Assembly (NCBI RefSeq): GCF_007993755.1
Contig: NZ_CP042467.1
Coordinates: 1,079,501-1,143,500 of the forward strand
Direction of reading: 5' to 3'
Source of the DNA: Microvenator marinus
GTDB taxonomy: Bacteria > Myxococcota_A > Bradymonadia > Bradymonadales > Bradymonadaceae
Length of the DNA: 64,000 nucleotides
In this document: in pieces, positions 19,651 through 55,300 of the stretch
Position numbering within the stretch: the first letter of the stretch is position 1
Layout: each line of letters starts with the position of its first letter
Translations under genes and position numbers: made by a program
The notes under the pieces: generated by a model
Seen by the model: the letters and a program-made list of their open reading frames with translations, nothing else
What the model was told of the DNA's origin: nothing
Database searches by the model: none

Positions 19651-20272
19651 TTTTGAAGACAACTACAGCGACTATCTGCAAGACACACTCGGATATTCGC
19701 CGAGCGCTTGGGACATGTGCACGTCAGCGCAAAAGATCGAACACGACCGAATGCTTGACGCGAGTGACGAAGACGTCCTCGGAAGTAACCCCAAAGAACT
19801 CTCACCTTGCACTCAGTGGGCATGGATTAAGCGAGTCTTGAGATTGGATGTAGAACGAGCGACCAAAGAAGTTCTCTCACTGATTGCTCAATGCCCAAGC
19901 GAACTCGAGGTGGACGAAATCATCGAGTACACCTGCCTCGAGCTTGCGAAACACCAGGAAGCCCTTGCAGCAAGTTTTCTGGACGGACTAAAGGATCACG
20001 ACGCTCTGGTTGAGACGTGGCGGGCCCATTTGAGCTCGAACCCCGAAGAAATCTTGAATTCGATAGGGAAGACCGCGCCTGAGGGCGAGGAATCGCGTGC
20101 GGAGTTCATCGCAGATGCACTGGTCGATTCAGCAGAGATTCAAACCTATCTCGGTCACCATGAAGTCGCACTCAAACTGCTCGATTTGGCTCAAAATGAG
20201 CTAGTCGATATTCAGTCGTCCACCCTGGTTGATATTGAGCTTGCGAGACAAAGATTACTGCATCACGAATGA
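19640..20272 (+). CDS. Helical protein of unknown function
   Basis: The ATG at 19640 lies inside the end of the peptidase gene (11-base overlap), giving 210 residues. The protein is acidic and mostly helical. Repeated segments such as EVDEIIEYTCLELAKHQEALAASFLDGL and IQTYLGHHEVALKLLDLAQNELVDI resemble TPR-like helical hairpins, but no family is certain. Coupling suggests it works with the peptidase. It overlaps the convergent gltJ-like gene by 18 bases at the 3' end. Confidence 0.6.
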   Translation: MKTDFEDNYSDYLQDTLGYSPSAWDMCTSAQKIEHDRMLDASDEDVLGSNPKELSPCTQWAWIKRVLRLDVERATKEVLSLIAQCPSELEVDEIIEYTCLELAKHQEALAASFLDGLKDHDALVETWRAHLSSNPEEILNSIGKTAPEGEESRAEFIADALVDSAEIQTYLGHHEVALKLLDLAQNELVDIQSSTLVDIELARQRLLHHE

Positions 20273-22117
20273 TGACGTGATCTCGGTGGCCACACCTTGC
20301 CAACGTGCGAACTTCCAGCGGTCCATATGTGACCGCATGCAGATATCAAACTCGGTGTTGGCGACCGAAGCTGGTTGCACACCGTATTTGCTAACGGAAC
20401 CCGTGGGCTCCACCGTGATCTTGATATGAATCTTGTTCGCATCAAGGGTCGCTCCGCGCCGCATATGCCGCTCCCGACATTGCATGACGGATTGTCGAAT
20501 AATTCTAAAGCCATCCCGCGCGGCGTCTTTGGAGAGAGTGGTCGCACTACTTCCAGCCGCGCCAATCGTATCCTCGGGACGATTGATTGCGGTGGACCCT
20601 GACCTGGCCGCAGTTGGACTCGTATAACTAAGCACAGATTGTGCGGTCACCGGTTTGTCCTCTTCGGGCGGCTTCTCTTCTGCTTTAGCGACGGCTTGAG
20701 GCTCAGTGCTTGTTTCGCCTTTGGTAGCCGCAACTTTTTTCGGTTCCGGTCTATCTTCCAGGCCCGCTTTCGTAGGTTCTTGCGGGGACTTCTCAGCGAC
20801 CTGCGCTTGAGTATTCTCAGCTGGCTTCTCCGGCATCGCCATCTCTTCAGGAGTCGGGTCTGCAGGAATCACCTCTTCTTCGAGCTCAATTCCCATATTG
20901 GAAAGTTTGCCCTTGGAATACACCTTCTCAACAGGGACACGCGCGGGCTCTTTCTTGGCCACTTCAGCGAACGGCCGCTCTTCCGGAGCCTTACCCGCAA
21001 AATAATAGCCGATGGCACCAGCAGATATACCAACGACCACGAGCGCCCCCAGCATGAATCCCAGCTTCTTCTTGCGCCCTTCCTTCTTGATACTATCGAG
21101 CTGGATGAGCAGCGAGCCGGTGGGAACCTGAGAGTCAGGAGTATGGCTTGATTCAAGTTTTGGAACGCTATCAAAAAACGGAATCAAACCGGAGTCTTGA
21201 GGAGACTCCAACTCCGCTCCCTTTGCCCAATCGTCCAGAACTTGATCTTCGGGTTCTACCTCACCTGAGTCGGAAGGCGCTTCCTCGAAAAGTGCGGCCG
21301 AAAAAGGCTTGAGCTCAAAAGCCGGAAGCTTTGGCTTCTCAGGGGCTGGCTCCGGCTTCTTATTCTCGACCTTTGGCTTGGAGTCGAGCATCGTATCAGG
21401 GAAGGTGATCGATGCGGTATCGTCGGGAGAATCAAACGTCGGAGTTGGAAGCTCAGGCTTCTTCTCGACCGCCTTCGGTGCAAGTCCCGCGGCGAGAGAG
21501 CGCTTGTTAGTATCAGGAACGTCGTTCTTTAGCTTCTCTCGCAAGGCTTCAAGACGATCTTGCCTTGGTTCCTTGCGTTTTTCGTCCTTCTTTGAACCGA
21601 TGTCTGGGCTCTTTTTGACGCCCAAGTCGGGAACGAAACCCTCTTGCTTGCCTTTCGGCGCCTGGTCGGCCTTGATGGCCTCTAGCGGACCGGTAAACCC
21701 GATAGTCTTTGCCCTAGGCTTAACGGTTTGACCTTTCGCGAGCGAGTCATGAAAAGCAGGTACTTCTCGGACGGGCTTCCATTGCACGATCGACTCGTGC
21801 CAGACGTAGGCCTCGTCTCCGAGCGACCCGTTCTCAAACTTCTCGCGTAGCGCCTTGAGTGTGAAGGGACCAGATGACTGGCCATTAACCGAATAATGCC
21901 AATTGTTTGGCGGAACTTTAGGCCCACCCGGAGCGGGTGGAGGAGAAGGTCGAGAGCCGAGGGCTGTTGGTTCAACACCAGTGGCCAAAGGCGCTTCTTG
22001 CTCCTTTACGGTAATGATATTGCCGCAGCTTTTGCATCGGACCTTCAGTACTTTTCCATGAACTTTTTCATCTGGAATTGAGTACTTGGTATTGCATGCG
22101 TCGCAATAGAACTTCAT
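20255..22117 (-). CDS. gltJ: GltJ/AgmX-like envelope protein: zinc ribbon, GYF domain, TonB-like C-terminus
   Basis: The 620-residue protein begins with an MJ0042-type zinc ribbon (Cys5, Cys8, Cys28, Cys31), then a GYF_2 domain (72-118, WHYSVNGQSSGPFTLKAL...VWHESIVQWKPV). A long charged cytoplasmic linker follows, then one transmembrane helix (351-375), a Pro/Glu/Lys-rich periplasmic stretch, and a C-terminal AgmX/TonB-like domain (about 540-620). This order matches GltJ of the Myxococcus gliding machinery, where the cytoplasmic part contacts MglA-type regulators. The rest of the Glt cluster is not here apart from a GltG-like gene 6 kb away, so a trafficking or motility role is inference. Confidence 0.75.
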   Translation of the reverse strand: MKFYCDACNTKYSIPDEKVHGKVLKVRCKSCGNIITVKEQEAPLATGVEPTALGSRPSPPPAPGGPKVPPNNWHYSVNGQSSGPFTLKALREKFENGSLGDEAYVWHESIVQWKPVREVPAFHDSLAKGQTVKPRAKTIGFTGPLEAIKADQAPKGKQEGFVPDLGVKKSPDIGSKKDEKRKEPRQDRLEALREKLKNDVPDTNKRSLAAGLAPKAVEKKPELPTPTFDSPDDTASITFPDTMLDSKPKVENKKPEPAPEKPKLPAFELKPFSAALFEEAPSDSGEVEPEDQVLDDWAKGAELESPQDSGLIPFFDSVPKLESSHTPDSQVPTGSLLIQLDSIKKEGRKKKLGFMLGALVVVGISAGAIGYYFAGKAPEERPFAEVAKKEPARVPVEKVYSKGKLSNMGIELEEEVIPADPTPEEMAMPEKPAENTQAQVAEKSPQEPTKAGLEDRPEPKKVAATKGETSTEPQAVAKAEEKPPEEDKPVTAQSVLSYTSPTAARSGSTAINRPEDTIGAAGSSATTLSKDAARDGFRIIRQSVMQCRERHMRRGATLDANKIHIKITVEPTGSVSKYGVQPASVANTEFDICMRSHMDRWKFARWQGVATEITSSFVMQ

Positions 22118-22259
22118 CGCGTGGGCTCGTCTGAATTTCCCTGTAGAGGCCGCCCGGAATGTATGGGCCAATTTTAAATGACCCCGCCCCGCCCGGCAAT
22201 GGCGGAGACTATCACAAGGCAAAACACTTGCCTACAGTCCATCTAATCCCAGACGACAA

Positions 22260-23618
22260 TTATCCTAATACCCACAGTCCTAAAATGACTACAGGTCCAC
22301 TGATTGCCCACACCAACGCCGTGTATCCCATGATATCGCGGGCCCTAAGTCCCATGATTCCCAGAAGTGGAAGGGCCCAAAACGGCTGCAACATATTCGT
22401 CCACGCGTCTCCGTACGAGAGCGCCATCACCACAGTGCTCGCTGGGATTTCCAATACACTGAGCGCCTCGACCATCAAAGGCCCCTGAACTGCCCACTGC
22501 CCTCCCCCGCTGGGCACAAAGAAGTTGACGGCCCCTGCGGAAAGGAAGGTCAGGATCGGGTAGGTGCTCTCAGACGAAATGGCAATAAATGCCTCGCTGA
22601 TCTGAGCGATTAATCCCGAGGAAGTCAGAATCCCCAGAATTCCAAAGTAGAGTGGAAATTGAATGATGATCGGACCCGCGCCGCGAGCTCCATCCAGAAT
22701 GGCCTCCACATAAGACAAGGGCGAGCGGTGTAAGAGCAAACCTAAACCGAAAAAGAGGAGGTTGACGGTATCGAGGTGCCAAGCCGCAACTCCCGTTGAG
22801 AAGAGCAGGAAAGCTACCCACGAGAGTACCAAGAGTCCAAACCCAACTCCGAGCCAAGGTCCATGCTCAAGTTGGCTCACAATCCCGCTGGCGCCGCCTC
22901 TCGCCTTTTCAAGAGGCTCGTCCATCTTCAGAGAGGGTTCAATGACGTTTTCGCTGGGTGTCAGAACCCAAAAGAGACCCGCCATCACCAAGATCAGTGA
23001 GCTCGTAATCACCATGTTCATTGGCGCCAAGATCGTTTCCGTAATGGGGATCACACCGATTGAGTCGACGAGGAAGTGATTGGCCTCCGCGACCTTTAAA
23101 GGTGCTGACCCAGAAAGCCCCCCGTGCCATACGACGAACCCCGCATAGCCGGCAGCGCCTAGAAGTGGGTAGTGGACCTTGATGCCCCTGGATTTGAGAG
23201 ATTTCCCCATTTCCCGTGCCATCAGCGCCCCGACAATCGCGCCGAGGCCCCATTGGATCAAGCTCGCCGCGCAAGCCACGAGCAAGACGACCACAACAGC
23301 GACCCTAGGACTGTTGACGCGCGACGTGATAAAACGCACCAACGACTGAATAGGCGGCGTCAATGCGAGCGCATGCCCTACGAGCAGGATAAGACACATC
23401 TGGAGGGCGAACTTCATCAAGCCTGTTGAAAAAAGCTCTTTAAACCACCCGTGGCCGATCAAGCTCATCCGTTGACCGACGCTCAAATCCTGAACTTCGG
23501 CCCCAAAAACCAGCGCCGAGACCCACACGAAAAGGCTCAAAAGTAGGGCAAACACCATGGGATCTGGAACGACTCGCTCCGAGATATCCGAGAGTTTTGA
23601 CCCCCATTTCGAGATCAT
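22260..23618 (-). CDS. atoE: Short-chain fatty acid transporter (AtoE family)
   Basis: The 452-residue, very hydrophobic protein has about 11-12 transmembrane segments and the AtoE/TIGR00366 pattern (RVVPDPMVFALLL near the N-terminus, then VWHGGLSGSAPLK and VNFFVPSGGGQWAVQGP). AtoE-type carriers take up short-chain fatty acids such as acetoacetate or butyrate. The start overlaps the xseB stop (ATGA), so it is co-transcribed with xseA-xseB, an odd pairing of functions. No acetoacetate-metabolism genes are adjacent. Confidence 0.88.
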   Translation of the reverse strand: MISKWGSKLSDISERVVPDPMVFALLLSLFVWVSALVFGAEVQDLSVGQRMSLIGHGWFKELFSTGLMKFALQMCLILLVGHALALTPPIQSLVRFITSRVNSPRVAVVVVLLVACAASLIQWGLGAIVGALMAREMGKSLKSRGIKVHYPLLGAAGYAGFVVWHGGLSGSAPLKVAEANHFLVDSIGVIPITETILAPMNMVITSSLILVMAGLFWVLTPSENVIEPSLKMDEPLEKARGGASGIVSQLEHGPWLGVGFGLLVLSWVAFLLFSTGVAAWHLDTVNLLFFGLGLLLHRSPLSYVEAILDGARGAGPIIIQFPLYFGILGILTSSGLIAQISEAFIAISSESTYPILTFLSAGAVNFFVPSGGGQWAVQGPLMVEALSVLEIPASTVVMALSYGDAWTNMLQPFWALPLLGIMGLRARDIMGYTALVWAISGPVVILGLWVLG

Positions 23619-23818
23619 TGAGACACCGTTTGAACAACTTCAATGACCTGAGTTTCTACTTCCCGCAGCTTTGCTCGGCACTTCTGCAAGAGGTCAGTGG
23701 CTCTCGAAACATGGTCGACTAACTCATCGACCGAAACCTGATTGGACTCAATACCTTTAAGGATTTTCTCTATCTCGTCCATGGCTGCTTTGAATTCAAA
23801 TTTCTCGTCGTCTGCCAT
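23615..23818 (-). CDS. xseB: Exodeoxyribonuclease VII small subunit
   Basis: At 67 residues it has the XseB helical signature (FKAAMDEIEKILKGIESNQVSVDELVDHVSRATDLLQKCRAKL). Several copies pair with one XseA to make the ExoVII nuclease. It follows xseA with no gap and overlaps atoE by four bases. Confidence 0.93.
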   Translation of the reverse strand: MADDEKFEFKAAMDEIEKILKGIESNQVSVDELVDHVSRATDLLQKCRAKLREVETQVIEVVQTVSQ

Positions 23819-25294
23819 TTAGTGATCTCCACGTTTAGTGATTTCCAGAACTCGAGACGTGACGCTTCCATCCCCAAATTCCAATTCAACATCTTGCCCT
23901 ACTTCCAACTCATCGACGCTCGAGCGGACCGCGCCTTTCGCCCGCAGGAGTACAAAGCCCCGCTCCAATGAACGGCGAGGGTTCTCTGATTCCACCTTGC
24001 TCTCCAAGAGGTTGAGGCGAGCGGTGGCACGCTCCAGATATTGATTTAAAGATGTAGAAAGCCTCGTTTGAGCGCGCTGGACCGAACCCTCTTCGCGTTC
24101 ACACCTCAGCTTTGCGTGCGATTCCAGCTGTGTCCGGAAACGATCGATGACTCGACCTTTAGAATCAAGATGTCGTTGTGCCCCAGTCTGAATGCCTCGA
24201 GCCAAGTCTTCAAGCGCGCGCTCTTCTTTCGCAACTGATTCTACCAAGAACTGAGCCACCGCAGTGGGTGTCTTAAATCCCCGAGACACACGGTCCATCA
24301 CTGTTTGATCTCGATGGTGTCCGATCCCCGTCAGGACAGGGAGAGGAAATCTCATGGCACTCAGTCCCAGCTTGAACGAATCAAACCACCCGAGGTCCGA
24401 CACTGAACCTCCGCCTCGTGTGATCACTAGAACGTCGTAGTCATCGCGAAGCTGCGCGAACCGGATGAGGCCATCCATTACACTCTCTTCCAATGCAACC
24501 CCTTGCATCTTCGCGTAAAACACCCCGACATCAAACGCGAATCCACTACGCCGGAGCTCATCCAAAAAGTCCGCTTCAGCATCCGTTGAACGCCCTGTGA
24601 TCAATGCTATGCGCAGAGGAGCCCGCGGAATCGCCATCTTTCGGTTCGTGTCTAAATCGCCTCTCTTCGAAAGCTCCGCCAGAATCTTGGAACGACGAAG
24701 CTCGGCATCGCTTCCCAAAGACTCGAGGTCGATGTCTTTGATGCTCACTGAAAGGCCACCCGTCTTCACATAGACGCCTGGCTGAACCAGGAAGCGATAC
24801 GTCCCACCGTCCTTTAACTCATGACCGATCGAGGCCAACGACTGCGTCAGCCGGATACGGTCGTCGTTCCACATTACCGCGGCGACCTTGGCATTCACGG
24901 TGCCGTCTCGATGCCTTTCCACCAATTCAAAATATGCGTGTCCCTTGGGCCTGATTTTGGTCCATCCTACGAGCTCGGACTCAAGCCAAACGGGCTCCTG
25001 AAAACTCTCTTGTACGATTTGAGCAAGTTGACGGTTCAACTGACTGACCGTCGTCACGTCCGGGTTATCGCCCCCGTCCAAGAGCGACGCTCGCGCCCCC
25101 GGTGTCAATTTAAAGTGCAGATGGTCCAATCGAATCAAGAGCTCTTGGCCCTGCGTCAAGGGTACCTTCCAAGACCTTGTATCCGAGTCGAAATAAGCCC
25201 CTTGAACCCCGGCAACAGCATCCCTGCAAGCCGCGTCGTACGGGAATCTAACCTCAAAGGTCTTTTCATGTTCAAGGAAGTCGATGACTCTCAT
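23819..25294 (-). CDS. xseA: Exodeoxyribonuclease VII large subunit with an extra HARP-like N-terminal domain
   Basis: From the ATG at 25292-25294 (AGGGGG about 10 bases upstream) the protein has 491 residues, longer than the usual 400-460. The OB-fold begins only at residue 80 (VTTVSQLNRQLAQIVQE). The XseA catalytic region follows (IALITGRSTDAEADFLDEL, VLVITRGGGSVSDLGWFD, PVLTGIGHHRDQT), then a coiled coil. ExoVII degrades single-stranded DNA to oligonucleotides. The first 75 residues (FEVRFPY at 13-19, AYFDSDTRSWKVPL at 33-46) resemble the HARP annealing-helicase substrate-recognition domain, not part of normal XseA. It starts two bases after the lipoprotein stop. Confidence 0.93.
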   Translation of the reverse strand: MRVIDFLEHEKTFEVRFPYDAACRDAVAGVQGAYFDSDTRSWKVPLTQGQELLIRLDHLHFKLTPGARASLLDGGDNPDVTTVSQLNRQLAQIVQESFQEPVWLESELVGWTKIRPKGHAYFELVERHRDGTVNAKVAAVMWNDDRIRLTQSLASIGHELKDGGTYRFLVQPGVYVKTGGLSVSIKDIDLESLGSDAELRRSKILAELSKRGDLDTNRKMAIPRAPLRIALITGRSTDAEADFLDELRRSGFAFDVGVFYAKMQGVALEESVMDGLIRFAQLRDDYDVLVITRGGGSVSDLGWFDSFKLGLSAMRFPLPVLTGIGHHRDQTVMDRVSRGFKTPTAVAQFLVESVAKEERALEDLARGIQTGAQRHLDSKGRVIDRFRTQLESHAKLRCEREEGSVQRAQTRLSTSLNQYLERATARLNLLESKVESENPRRSLERGFVLLRAKGAVRSSVDELEVGQDVELEFGDGSVTSRVLEITKRGDH

Positions 25295-52348: not shown

Positions 52349-55300
52349 ATGAGTAAAACGGCTATGACGAAGCACCAACCAGAAAACGGTTTTGCACATA
52401 ATCCCGACCCGATCGAAGGCGTCGAGGCTCGAATCAAACGAAACGTCGCTGGCGACGTGACCATCAGCTTTGGCGATGGCTCTGAGCCGATGAACGTCTC
52501 CCGACGCGAATTTATGCGGATTGGCGGCGTCGCTGCAGCTACGGCTGCCATGACTGGCACCGGCTGTAACGCGATGCGCAACGACGTTGAATACATCGTT
52601 CCCTACGTTGACCGGCCAGAAGAAGTACGCATCGGGACACCCAATTACTACACGACGGTTTGCTCAGGCTGTAATGCAGGCTGCGGCGCACTCGTGACTA
52701 GCCGGGGCGGTCGACCGATCAAGCTCGATGGCAACCCGCACCACCCACTTAGCCAAGGCGCCCTCTGCTCTCGCGGACTCGCCTCGTACATGAATCTCTA
52801 CGATCCGGACCGCGCCAAGTCTCCTCTCAAGGTAGCTCAAGGTGGCGGACACACGCCGGTCAAATGGGAGGAAGTTGACCGTACTGTCATCTCGGCCGTG
52901 GAAAAAGCAACCAGTGGCGGTGGCATCGGTATCCTCACGCAAAACTTCCATGGAAGTGCACGCAAGGCTCTTCTGGCCGCTATCCAAAAGGGGCTGCCAG
53001 GCCTTAAGCACTACCAGTATGACGCGATCAATTCGGAGGCTCTGCGCGCTGCGAATCAAGCCACCTATTCAGATGCCCACATCCCATCTTACGACTTTTC
53101 GAAGGCGGATTACGTGGTGTCGCTTGGAAGTGACTTCCTCGGCTCGTGGCTCTCGCCGGTGCTCTTCACCAAGCAGTTCTCAAGCCGACGCAACCCAGAC
53201 GGCAACATGAACAAGATGGTGGCCTTTGAAGGCGCCATGACACTCACGGGTATGAACGCTGACGAGAGATTCCGCGTACGTCCGGGAGACCTTGTCCATA
53301 TCGCAATGGCGCTCTTGCACACGGTTCTCGTCACACGAAAGACCGGAGCCCTTTCAAACTCGCCGATCGCTGCAGCTGTTCAGGCGTTCTCCCCTGCTGA
53401 AGTTGCCTCCAAGCTCGGTATCGATGCGGATGCACTCACGCGGGTCGGGCAAGAACTCGCCGACAACGCAGGAAAAAGCCTTATCGTAGCCGGTGGAACC
53501 GCAAGCGCGACGGCTCAAGGTGTCTCTCTTGAAGTCGCCGTGAACGCGCTTAACGCGGCGCTCGGAAACGTCGGCAACACGGTCGACCACGTCAACGTGT
53601 CGAATCAACAGAGCGGCACACTCCAAGACCTCAAGACCCTCATCGCCGATATCAATGCGGGCAAGATCGATGTGCTTATCATCGACAGAGCCAACCCAAT
53701 CTACTCGGCTCCGCGCTCCCTGGGTTTTGAGGATGCGCTGAAGAAGGTCAAGCTTGTCATCAGCACCACGGATCGTGTTGATGAGACAAGCCTATTCGCA
53801 TCTTATCTTGCTCCTGCTGGACACCAGCTCGAGCAATGGGGCGACTCGAATCCGGTTGGAAATGTCTTTGCCATCCAGCAGCCAGTCATCCTGCCATTGC
53901 ACGACACACGAGGTTTCGAGCATAGCTTGATGGTGTGGTTCGGAAGCGCCCTACCCGGTGTATTCGACGTCTACCTCGCGGAGCCCCAAGCGCCTGCTGG
54001 AACACGTGCACCTGGCGTCCCAACTGACCCAGGCCCATGGTACCGATTCATCCGCCAACATTGGGAGACCACGCTTTTCCCGCGTGCTCGCTCTATGGCT
54101 TCATTCGACCAATTCTGGATGGAGACCTTGCAAAAAGGCGTGTTTGAACTCGAGGTACAGGCACGTCGCCAACCTAATTTTGAGGCGAACAAAGCACTGG
54201 CGTTACTCCCAACGGCATTGCCCGAAGCGACAACCAACGAGCCTGGGGATCTCAGCAAGAAAGAGATTCAACTCGTCGCAACACCCACAATGTTCGACGG
54301 TGAGCACGCAAACAACGGCCACCTGCAAGAAACTCCTGAAGTCGTTACTAAGCACGTCTGGGGCTCTTACGCCATGGTGTCCCCTGCCACATTCAAGGCA
54401 GCAAAACTCAAGTCCGGACAAGTACTCAGCATTGCGCTAGAGAACGTGGTTCGCGAATTCCAAGTCATCATGCAACCAGGCATGCACGACGACGTCATCG
54501 GCATTCCACTCGGATACGGCCGAACGGCAGCCGGTGTGGTCGGAAATGAAGTCGGCGAGAACGGCTTCCTCTTTGGGCATGAGTCGGAAGGACGGCATAT
54601 TTTGGCCGGCCTGAAACTCGAAGTAAAAGACAGCAAGCGCACCGAGAAACTCTCGGTGATCAAAGGAGCAGGCGTTATCGACCTGCACCGCCGCAACTAC
54701 TTCGCGTCGACAACCCTTGAAGAATACAAGGAAGACAAGTCGGCAGGCGTACACAAGCACCCAGACCTCAATGACATGTGGGATCGCCACAAGTACGAAG
54801 TCAAATGGGGCATGGCAATCGACCTTTCGAAGTGCACTGGATGTTCAGCTTGCGTCACAGCATGCCAGGAAGAGAACAACATCCCAGTAGTCGGACGTAC
54901 CGGTATTCTCGAAGGCCGAGAAATGCACTGGATGCGCATCGACCGCTACTACGAGATGCCGCACGAGGCCGCTCACAAGCAGTCTAACCCAGTCAACTTC
55001 GCTGCCCTTGCACACCAGCAGTACAGCGACTCTGGCGACCCAATGCTGCACCCTGAGCCTCTTGTCGCACTTGCTGAATACATGGATGAGCCACGCGTGC
55101 TCTTCCAACCGATGATGTGTCAGCACTGTGAAAATGCCCCTTGCGAGAATGTGTGTCCGGTGGCTGCCACCATGCACAGCGAGGACGGCCTCAACCAGAT
55201 GATCTACAACCGTTGTGTGGGTACCCGTTATTGCTCCAATAACTGCCCATTCAAAGTTCGACGCTATAACTGGTTCAACTACGCCGTGGACCGAAGCGAC

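Follow-up and report, generated by a model that had tools for sequence, protein, structure and literature searches.

Targeting in vivo is poorly understood for exonuclease VII (ExoVII), the textbook single-stranded DNA (ssDNA) exonuclease, and one gene of the myxococcote bacterium Microvenator marinus poses the problem in a concrete form. Upstream of the OB fold with which the large ExoVII subunit, XseA, normally begins, the encoded protein contains additional residues that a first-pass annotation took for a HARP domain. Is this extension a genuine domain of the HARP type, where else does it occur, and what could it do for a nuclease? The gene lies in a 64 000-nucleotide segment of contig NZ_CP042467.1 (positions 1 079 501 to 1 143 500), hereafter the window, in which all coordinates below are given.

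A complete ExoVII gene pair

The xseA gene with the added N-terminal domain spans positions 23819–25294, as given in the first-pass annotation, on the minus strand. It encodes 491 amino acids, starting from an ATG at 25294 that is preceded, nine bases 5', by AGGGGG and ending with a TAA stop codon at 23819–23821. The protein includes the OB-fold domain (residues 82–189; 24728–25051, minus strand; Pfam tRNA_anti_2, E = 1e-14) and the Pfam Exonuc_VII_L region, which comprises the catalytic and coiled-coil portions (residues 214–485; 23840–24655, minus strand). The two Pfam scores, 203 bits (cut-off 35.9) and 55 bits (cut-off 27), place both the OB fold and Exonuc_VII_L above the curated cut-offs, and the NCBIfam model TIGR00237 (xseA) covers residues 82–482 with 267.6 bits (cut-off 180). 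In a sequence search of the PDB with the single XseA protein, the Escherichia coli structure 8txr is the only match, and H326 aligns with the H238A position of that structure. Altogether, D242, R293, H326 and D329 are conserved at the E. coli active-site positions, which we take to be D155, R205, H238 and D241.

Directly 3' of the xseA stop codon is xseB (23615–23818, minus strand; 67 amino acids; Pfam Exonuc_VII_S, E = 5.1e-13). Given the intact XseA domains, the catalytic residues and the adjoining xseB, this is a complete ExoVII gene pair; a second XseA was searched for in the same genome, and none was found. The OB fold, the D/R/H/D catalytic positions, the coiled coil and the XseB partner are all shared with canonical XseA (TIGR00237; E. 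coli 8txr), which, however, starts at the OB fold, whereas the window protein has the extra N-terminal HARP domain and a core that falls in a separate group of the phylogenetic tree. What we describe is a variant form of a familiar enzyme and not a system of a new kind. The surroundings include an ordinary short-chain fatty acid transporter gene directly 3' of xseB (22260–23618, minus strand; SCFA_trans, E = 1.9e-109) and a gene for a 655-amino acid protein that combines a Zn_ribbon_4 zinc ribbon with a GYF_2 domain (20255–22222, minus strand).

Conservation and predicted fold of the N-terminal domain

Sequence profiles, conservation and the predicted fold delineate a HARP-type domain at residues 1–72 (25079–25294, minus strand). 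The first-pass annotation had placed the motifs FEVRFPY and YFDSDTRSWKVPL at residues 13–19 and 34–46, respectively, where both are indeed found, and had described an added domain ahead of an OB fold beginning at residue 80. The extra N-terminal segment stands, being separate and conserved in homologs, but the start of the OB fold shifts to residue 82 in the Pfam match. In a survey of related genomes, the matches extend to residues 1–15 of the query for nearly every member of the M. marinus family (f1) and for most of its order (f2), and inspection of the reading frames added representatives of f4 and f6, two further families in the same class; in families f3 and f7, and in almost all of the other genomes sampled from the phylum, XseA starts at or near the OB fold. 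An alignment of 21 XseA N-termini shows that W42 and F61 are invariant, and F17, V27 and L56 are nearly so. The window copy is among the more diverged members: where LPGR is the common motif, it reads VQGAY and lacks the Arg. A profile of the other XseA N-termini, from which the window row was left out, still scores it at 56.7 bits (E = 1.6e-16). None of the 2000 shuffles of the residues of this domain was matched by that profile or by a HARP profile derived from SNF2 helicases only.

AlphaFold2 modeling of the full protein from XseA rows only yields a pLDDT of about 83–94 for residues 1–70, followed by a linker at residues 73–81 (25052–25078, minus strand) with pLDDT <60, and below 50 at residues 75–77, after which comes the OB fold. 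Foldseek searches with the full-length model are dominated by the ExoVII core, so the domain was modeled by itself, with five XseA rows and without any helicase rows as input (mean pLDDT 81.9). The domain-alone model contains predicted strands at residues 3–8, 12–16, 34–36 and 41–45, a short one at 62–63, and helices at 21–28 and 46–57. HARP is described as having two helices against which a sheet of five strands is packed (PMC4666394), and the predicted fold conforms to this description in both strand and helix number and matches the SMARCAL1 HARP structure 4o66.

In the Foldseek comparison with the PDB, all of the top 15 places are taken by the damage-recognition region of XPB or by 4o66, with nothing unrelated among them; the small size of the domain keeps the E-values modest (0.0045 to 0.34). 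The match to 4o66 itself has TM scores of 0.57/0.64, a probability of 0.99 and, for this small domain, E = 0.02. The structure prediction and fold search that had been suggested as a check on the motif-based call thus produced a confident fold with XPB and 4o66 as its best PDB matches, and among the viral models, the named top matches are HepA-related and SWI/SNF-related phage proteins.

That no real domain exists here, with a mis-called start or a chance motif accounting for the initial impression, was conceivable as long as the call was made by motif, with no tool result in its favor, but this explanation is refuted by the conservation in relatives, the predicted fold and its matches, the shuffling result and the lineage-wide presence of the domain, so that its probability is negligible. 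A true start located downstream is ruled out by the presence and conservation of the N-terminus in homologs, and an ordinary XseA OB strand is ruled out for residues 1–80 by the predicted fold of residues 1–72, which is not OB.

Relationship to HARP domains

By direct comparison with Pfam HARP (PF07443), the window copy gives a weak match, in register, of 15 bits against a gathering score of 25 (E = 0.016–0.018), and Pfam run on the whole protein reports no HARP, so that routine annotation would miss the domain. Across the relatives, 18 of the 21 XseA N-termini match Pfam HARP (best E = 6.6e-8), in agreement with the check by HARP family models that had been proposed along with the motif, and two full-length relatives, with 25.9 bits (L006) and 26.3 bits (L014), exceed the gathering score. 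When the profile of XseA N-termini was run against all PDB sequences, there was one significant match, to the SMARCAL1 HARP (4o66, E = 2.5e-7); the same profile also matches the HARP repeats located N-terminal to the SNF2 motor of phage helicases. Conversely, the HARP profile made from the phage SNF2 helicases alone matches residues 4–69 of the window protein with 47.8 bits (E = 1e-13), and the window domain, searched as a single sequence against all phage records, retrieves annotated phage DNA helicases only (best E = 1e-3). What had been called by motif alone is, accordingly, borne out by Pfam, the 4o66 profile match, the homology with phage SNF2 proteins and the fold, and we regard the assignment of the N-terminal domain of the window XseA to the HARP type as practically certain. 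A search for further HARP domains in the genome from which the window comes gave no clear case, which means that no detectable SMARCAL1-like helicase of this organism shares the module.

Distribution and origin of the HARP-XseA fusion

A survey of XseA in Myxococcota had been recommended in the first-pass annotation, and the fusion recurs in that phylum, being the rule in the family and the order of M. marinus; its distribution is, moreover, wider. A scan of named genomes identified HARP-XseA in metagenome-assembled genomes (MAGs) labeled Planctomycetota (L063 and L072) and Bipolaricaulota (L065), as well as in Myxococcales CSSed162cmA_402 (L064), and xseB follows xseA at L063, L065 and L072. 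Among the sampled relatives of the genomes carrying L072, L063 and L065, the fusion is present in 18 of 59, 22 of 51 and 26 of 50, respectively; it is a lineage-wide feature of two planctomycetote groups and of one group within Bipolaricaulota, and contamination of the MAGs, considered as a source of these loci, is rejected on the same counts. The 35 N-termini from these groups (L173–L207) match the SNF2-only HARP profile with E-values of 6.5e-13 or better.

When a tree was computed from the XseA core, starting at the OB fold and hence lacking the HARP columns, the 32 HARP-XseA proteins of the three phyla fell on one side of a branch with support of 83 (not starred), and the plain XseA of the same three phyla were placed elsewhere. 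The simplest reading would be a single origin and, afterward, either transfer between phyla or differential loss. In another class of Myxococcota, a genome with 8% contamination (G335), which may be a mixed bin, encodes both a HARP-XseA and a plain XseA (L163 and L164).

An earlier core tree agrees with the one described here, with the exception of L026 (G022, family f2), a locus where the XseA N-terminus looks like a decayed HARP (RARVRGSGGPAARLRTVPDVVWDQGAAWFPL). Such a decayed-looking copy in one relative and the weak Pfam score of the window copy would fit a scenario in which the latter is itself a functionless leftover and only the relatives use the domain. This is, however, very improbable considering the fold confidence of 83–94 across most of the domain, the score of 56.7 bits against the profile of the relatives, and the retention of the key Trp, Phe and Pro residues.

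Two other XseA variants carry N-terminal additions. In family f5 of the same class (L029, L032, L033, L034 and L036), the XseA N-terminus is a different conserved module of ∼60 residues with the motif W..S..DD.G...YW...F..I.PLLDA.GY. This module may be a degenerate HARP or a relative of DUF5710; comparison with the HARP profile gives an unconvincing probability of 14.9%, and the f5 XseA core is the sister of the HARP group in the core tree. In Elusimicrobia RIFOXYD2_FULL_34_15, XseA (L067:3686–5275) contains an N-terminal HRDC domain (Pfam, E = 4.4e-20). The HRDC domain is likewise an added DNA-binding module and has an unrelated fold, and this is an independent gain at the same place.

Functional implications of the fusion

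HARP is counted among the fork-recognition ‘wedge' domains of remodeling enzymes and is present also in UvsW of phage T4 (PMC4666394). In SMARCAL1, the HARP2 mutant W372A/F374A has been used as a variant deficient in DNA binding and annealing (PMC12018271). The invariant Trp42 of the XseA N-termini (codon at 25169–25171, minus strand) aligns with the KTW Trp of 4o66 which, judging from the W-x-F spacing, is apparently W372 of SMARCAL1. The E. coli ExoVII digests ssDNA starting at either end, has a role in mismatch repair, and is implicated in the degradation of 3' and 5' flaps where replication forks fuse (PMC6393302); such flaps would be a substrate to which a HARP domain is suited.

The model we favor, with a probability of roughly 60%, is that the tethered HARP domain anchors ExoVII at junctions where single-stranded DNA meets duplex and passes the single-stranded arm on to the OB fold and the nuclease. 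Joined via a flexible linker immediately before the ssDNA-binding OB fold, a domain of the HARP/XPB damage-recognition type would bind a junction, be it a fork, a 3' or 5' flap, or the edge of a gap, and hold the ExoVII holoenzyme in place, whereupon the adjacent single strand would come to lie first along the OB fold and next within the active site. The enzyme would, in this manner, trim ssDNA arms at branched DNA instead of depending on chance encounters with free ends, and because XseA is multimeric in ExoVII, there would be several HARP domains per particle, which would add avidity. Junction binding, the hand-over to the OB fold, the in vivo substrate and the gain in efficiency of HARP-ExoVII are what we infer here. 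The linker varies from 10 to 99 residues across 71 HARP-XseA loci; this high variability fits a tethered anchor and argues against rigid coupling. Weighing against the model are the divergence of the window copy and the partnership of HARP with a motor in SMARCAL1, a motor being absent from ExoVII.

A less specific role is also conceivable, namely, a general nucleic acid clamp that raises the affinity for ssDNA or duplex and the processivity of the enzyme and does not recognize junctions. The long, variable linkers are compatible with such a loose tether, as is the neutral charge: the net charge of the window domain is −1 and that of the XseA HARPs in general is about neutral, as it is in the phage SNF2 HARPs, so the composition gives no grounds for a basic patch. 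Furthermore, the adjoining OB fold already binds ssDNA, and the damage-recognition domain of XPB, which ranks first among the fold matches, is not a dedicated fork reader. The association of HARP with fork remodeling in SMARCAL1 and UvsW, and the HRDC domain found in the same place in another XseA, weigh against this alternative, which we consider unlikely.

Even less plausible is recruitment of ExoVII through a protein contact, for example, with SSB or a part of the replisome, by a domain that has lost its own DNA binding. Small domains are often reused in this way, the LPGR Arg is missing in the window copy, and there is divergence in families f4 and f5, but the invariant Trp, which in SMARCAL1 is needed for DNA binding and annealing, is kept in all aligned XseA copies.

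Returning to the anchoring model, the HRDC-XseA of Elusimicrobia, with a different DNA-binding module in the same position, lends independent support to the principle. The odds seem slightly better than even that Myxococcota, Planctomycetota and Bipolaricaulota share an old ExoVII subfamily that HARP, linked to a nuclease and free of a motor, aims at forks and flaps. The recurrence of the fusion in three bacterial phyla suggests a junction-aimed version of a standard repair enzyme, and the lineage-wide fusion to HARP, a domain of known DNA-structure preference, together with the HRDC fusion, points toward branched DNA being the relevant substrate of ExoVII. Within the open-licence literature, the search turned up no report of such a pairing of ExoVII with HARP or HRDC; the combination of HARP and Exonuc_VII_L may already be present in the Pfam architecture lists, because two relatives exceed the cut-off.

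Comparison with other HARP-like domains

The domains most similar to the XseA N-terminus differ from it primarily in context. The SMARCAL1 HARP (PF07443, 4o66) and the phage SNF2 HARPs share with it the sequence profile, the fold and the invariant Trp, but are located in front of an SNF2 motor and are often repeated in tandem, whereas the XseA HARP is a single copy in front of a nuclease; the SMARCAL1 domain acts together with the motor, and ExoVII has none. The fusion extends the range of HARP from motor proteins to a nuclease. The XPB damage-recognition domain (2fz4, 6p66 and 2fwr), the best fold match (TM about 0.55, rmsd ∼2.6 over ∼60 columns), resides in a helicase and has a sequence identity of ∼15%. 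DUF5710 (PF18974), a domain of unknown function, weakly matches 11 of the 21 XseA N-termini, mainly through the common W.VP core, with the full-length XseA proteins scoring below the cut-off. Among the phage records, that of Arthrobacter phage Wheelbite (MF140434.1) contains a HARP-like match at positions 54989–55195 within an annotated DNA helicase gene, and this gene overlaps or adjoins an annotated exonuclease gene.
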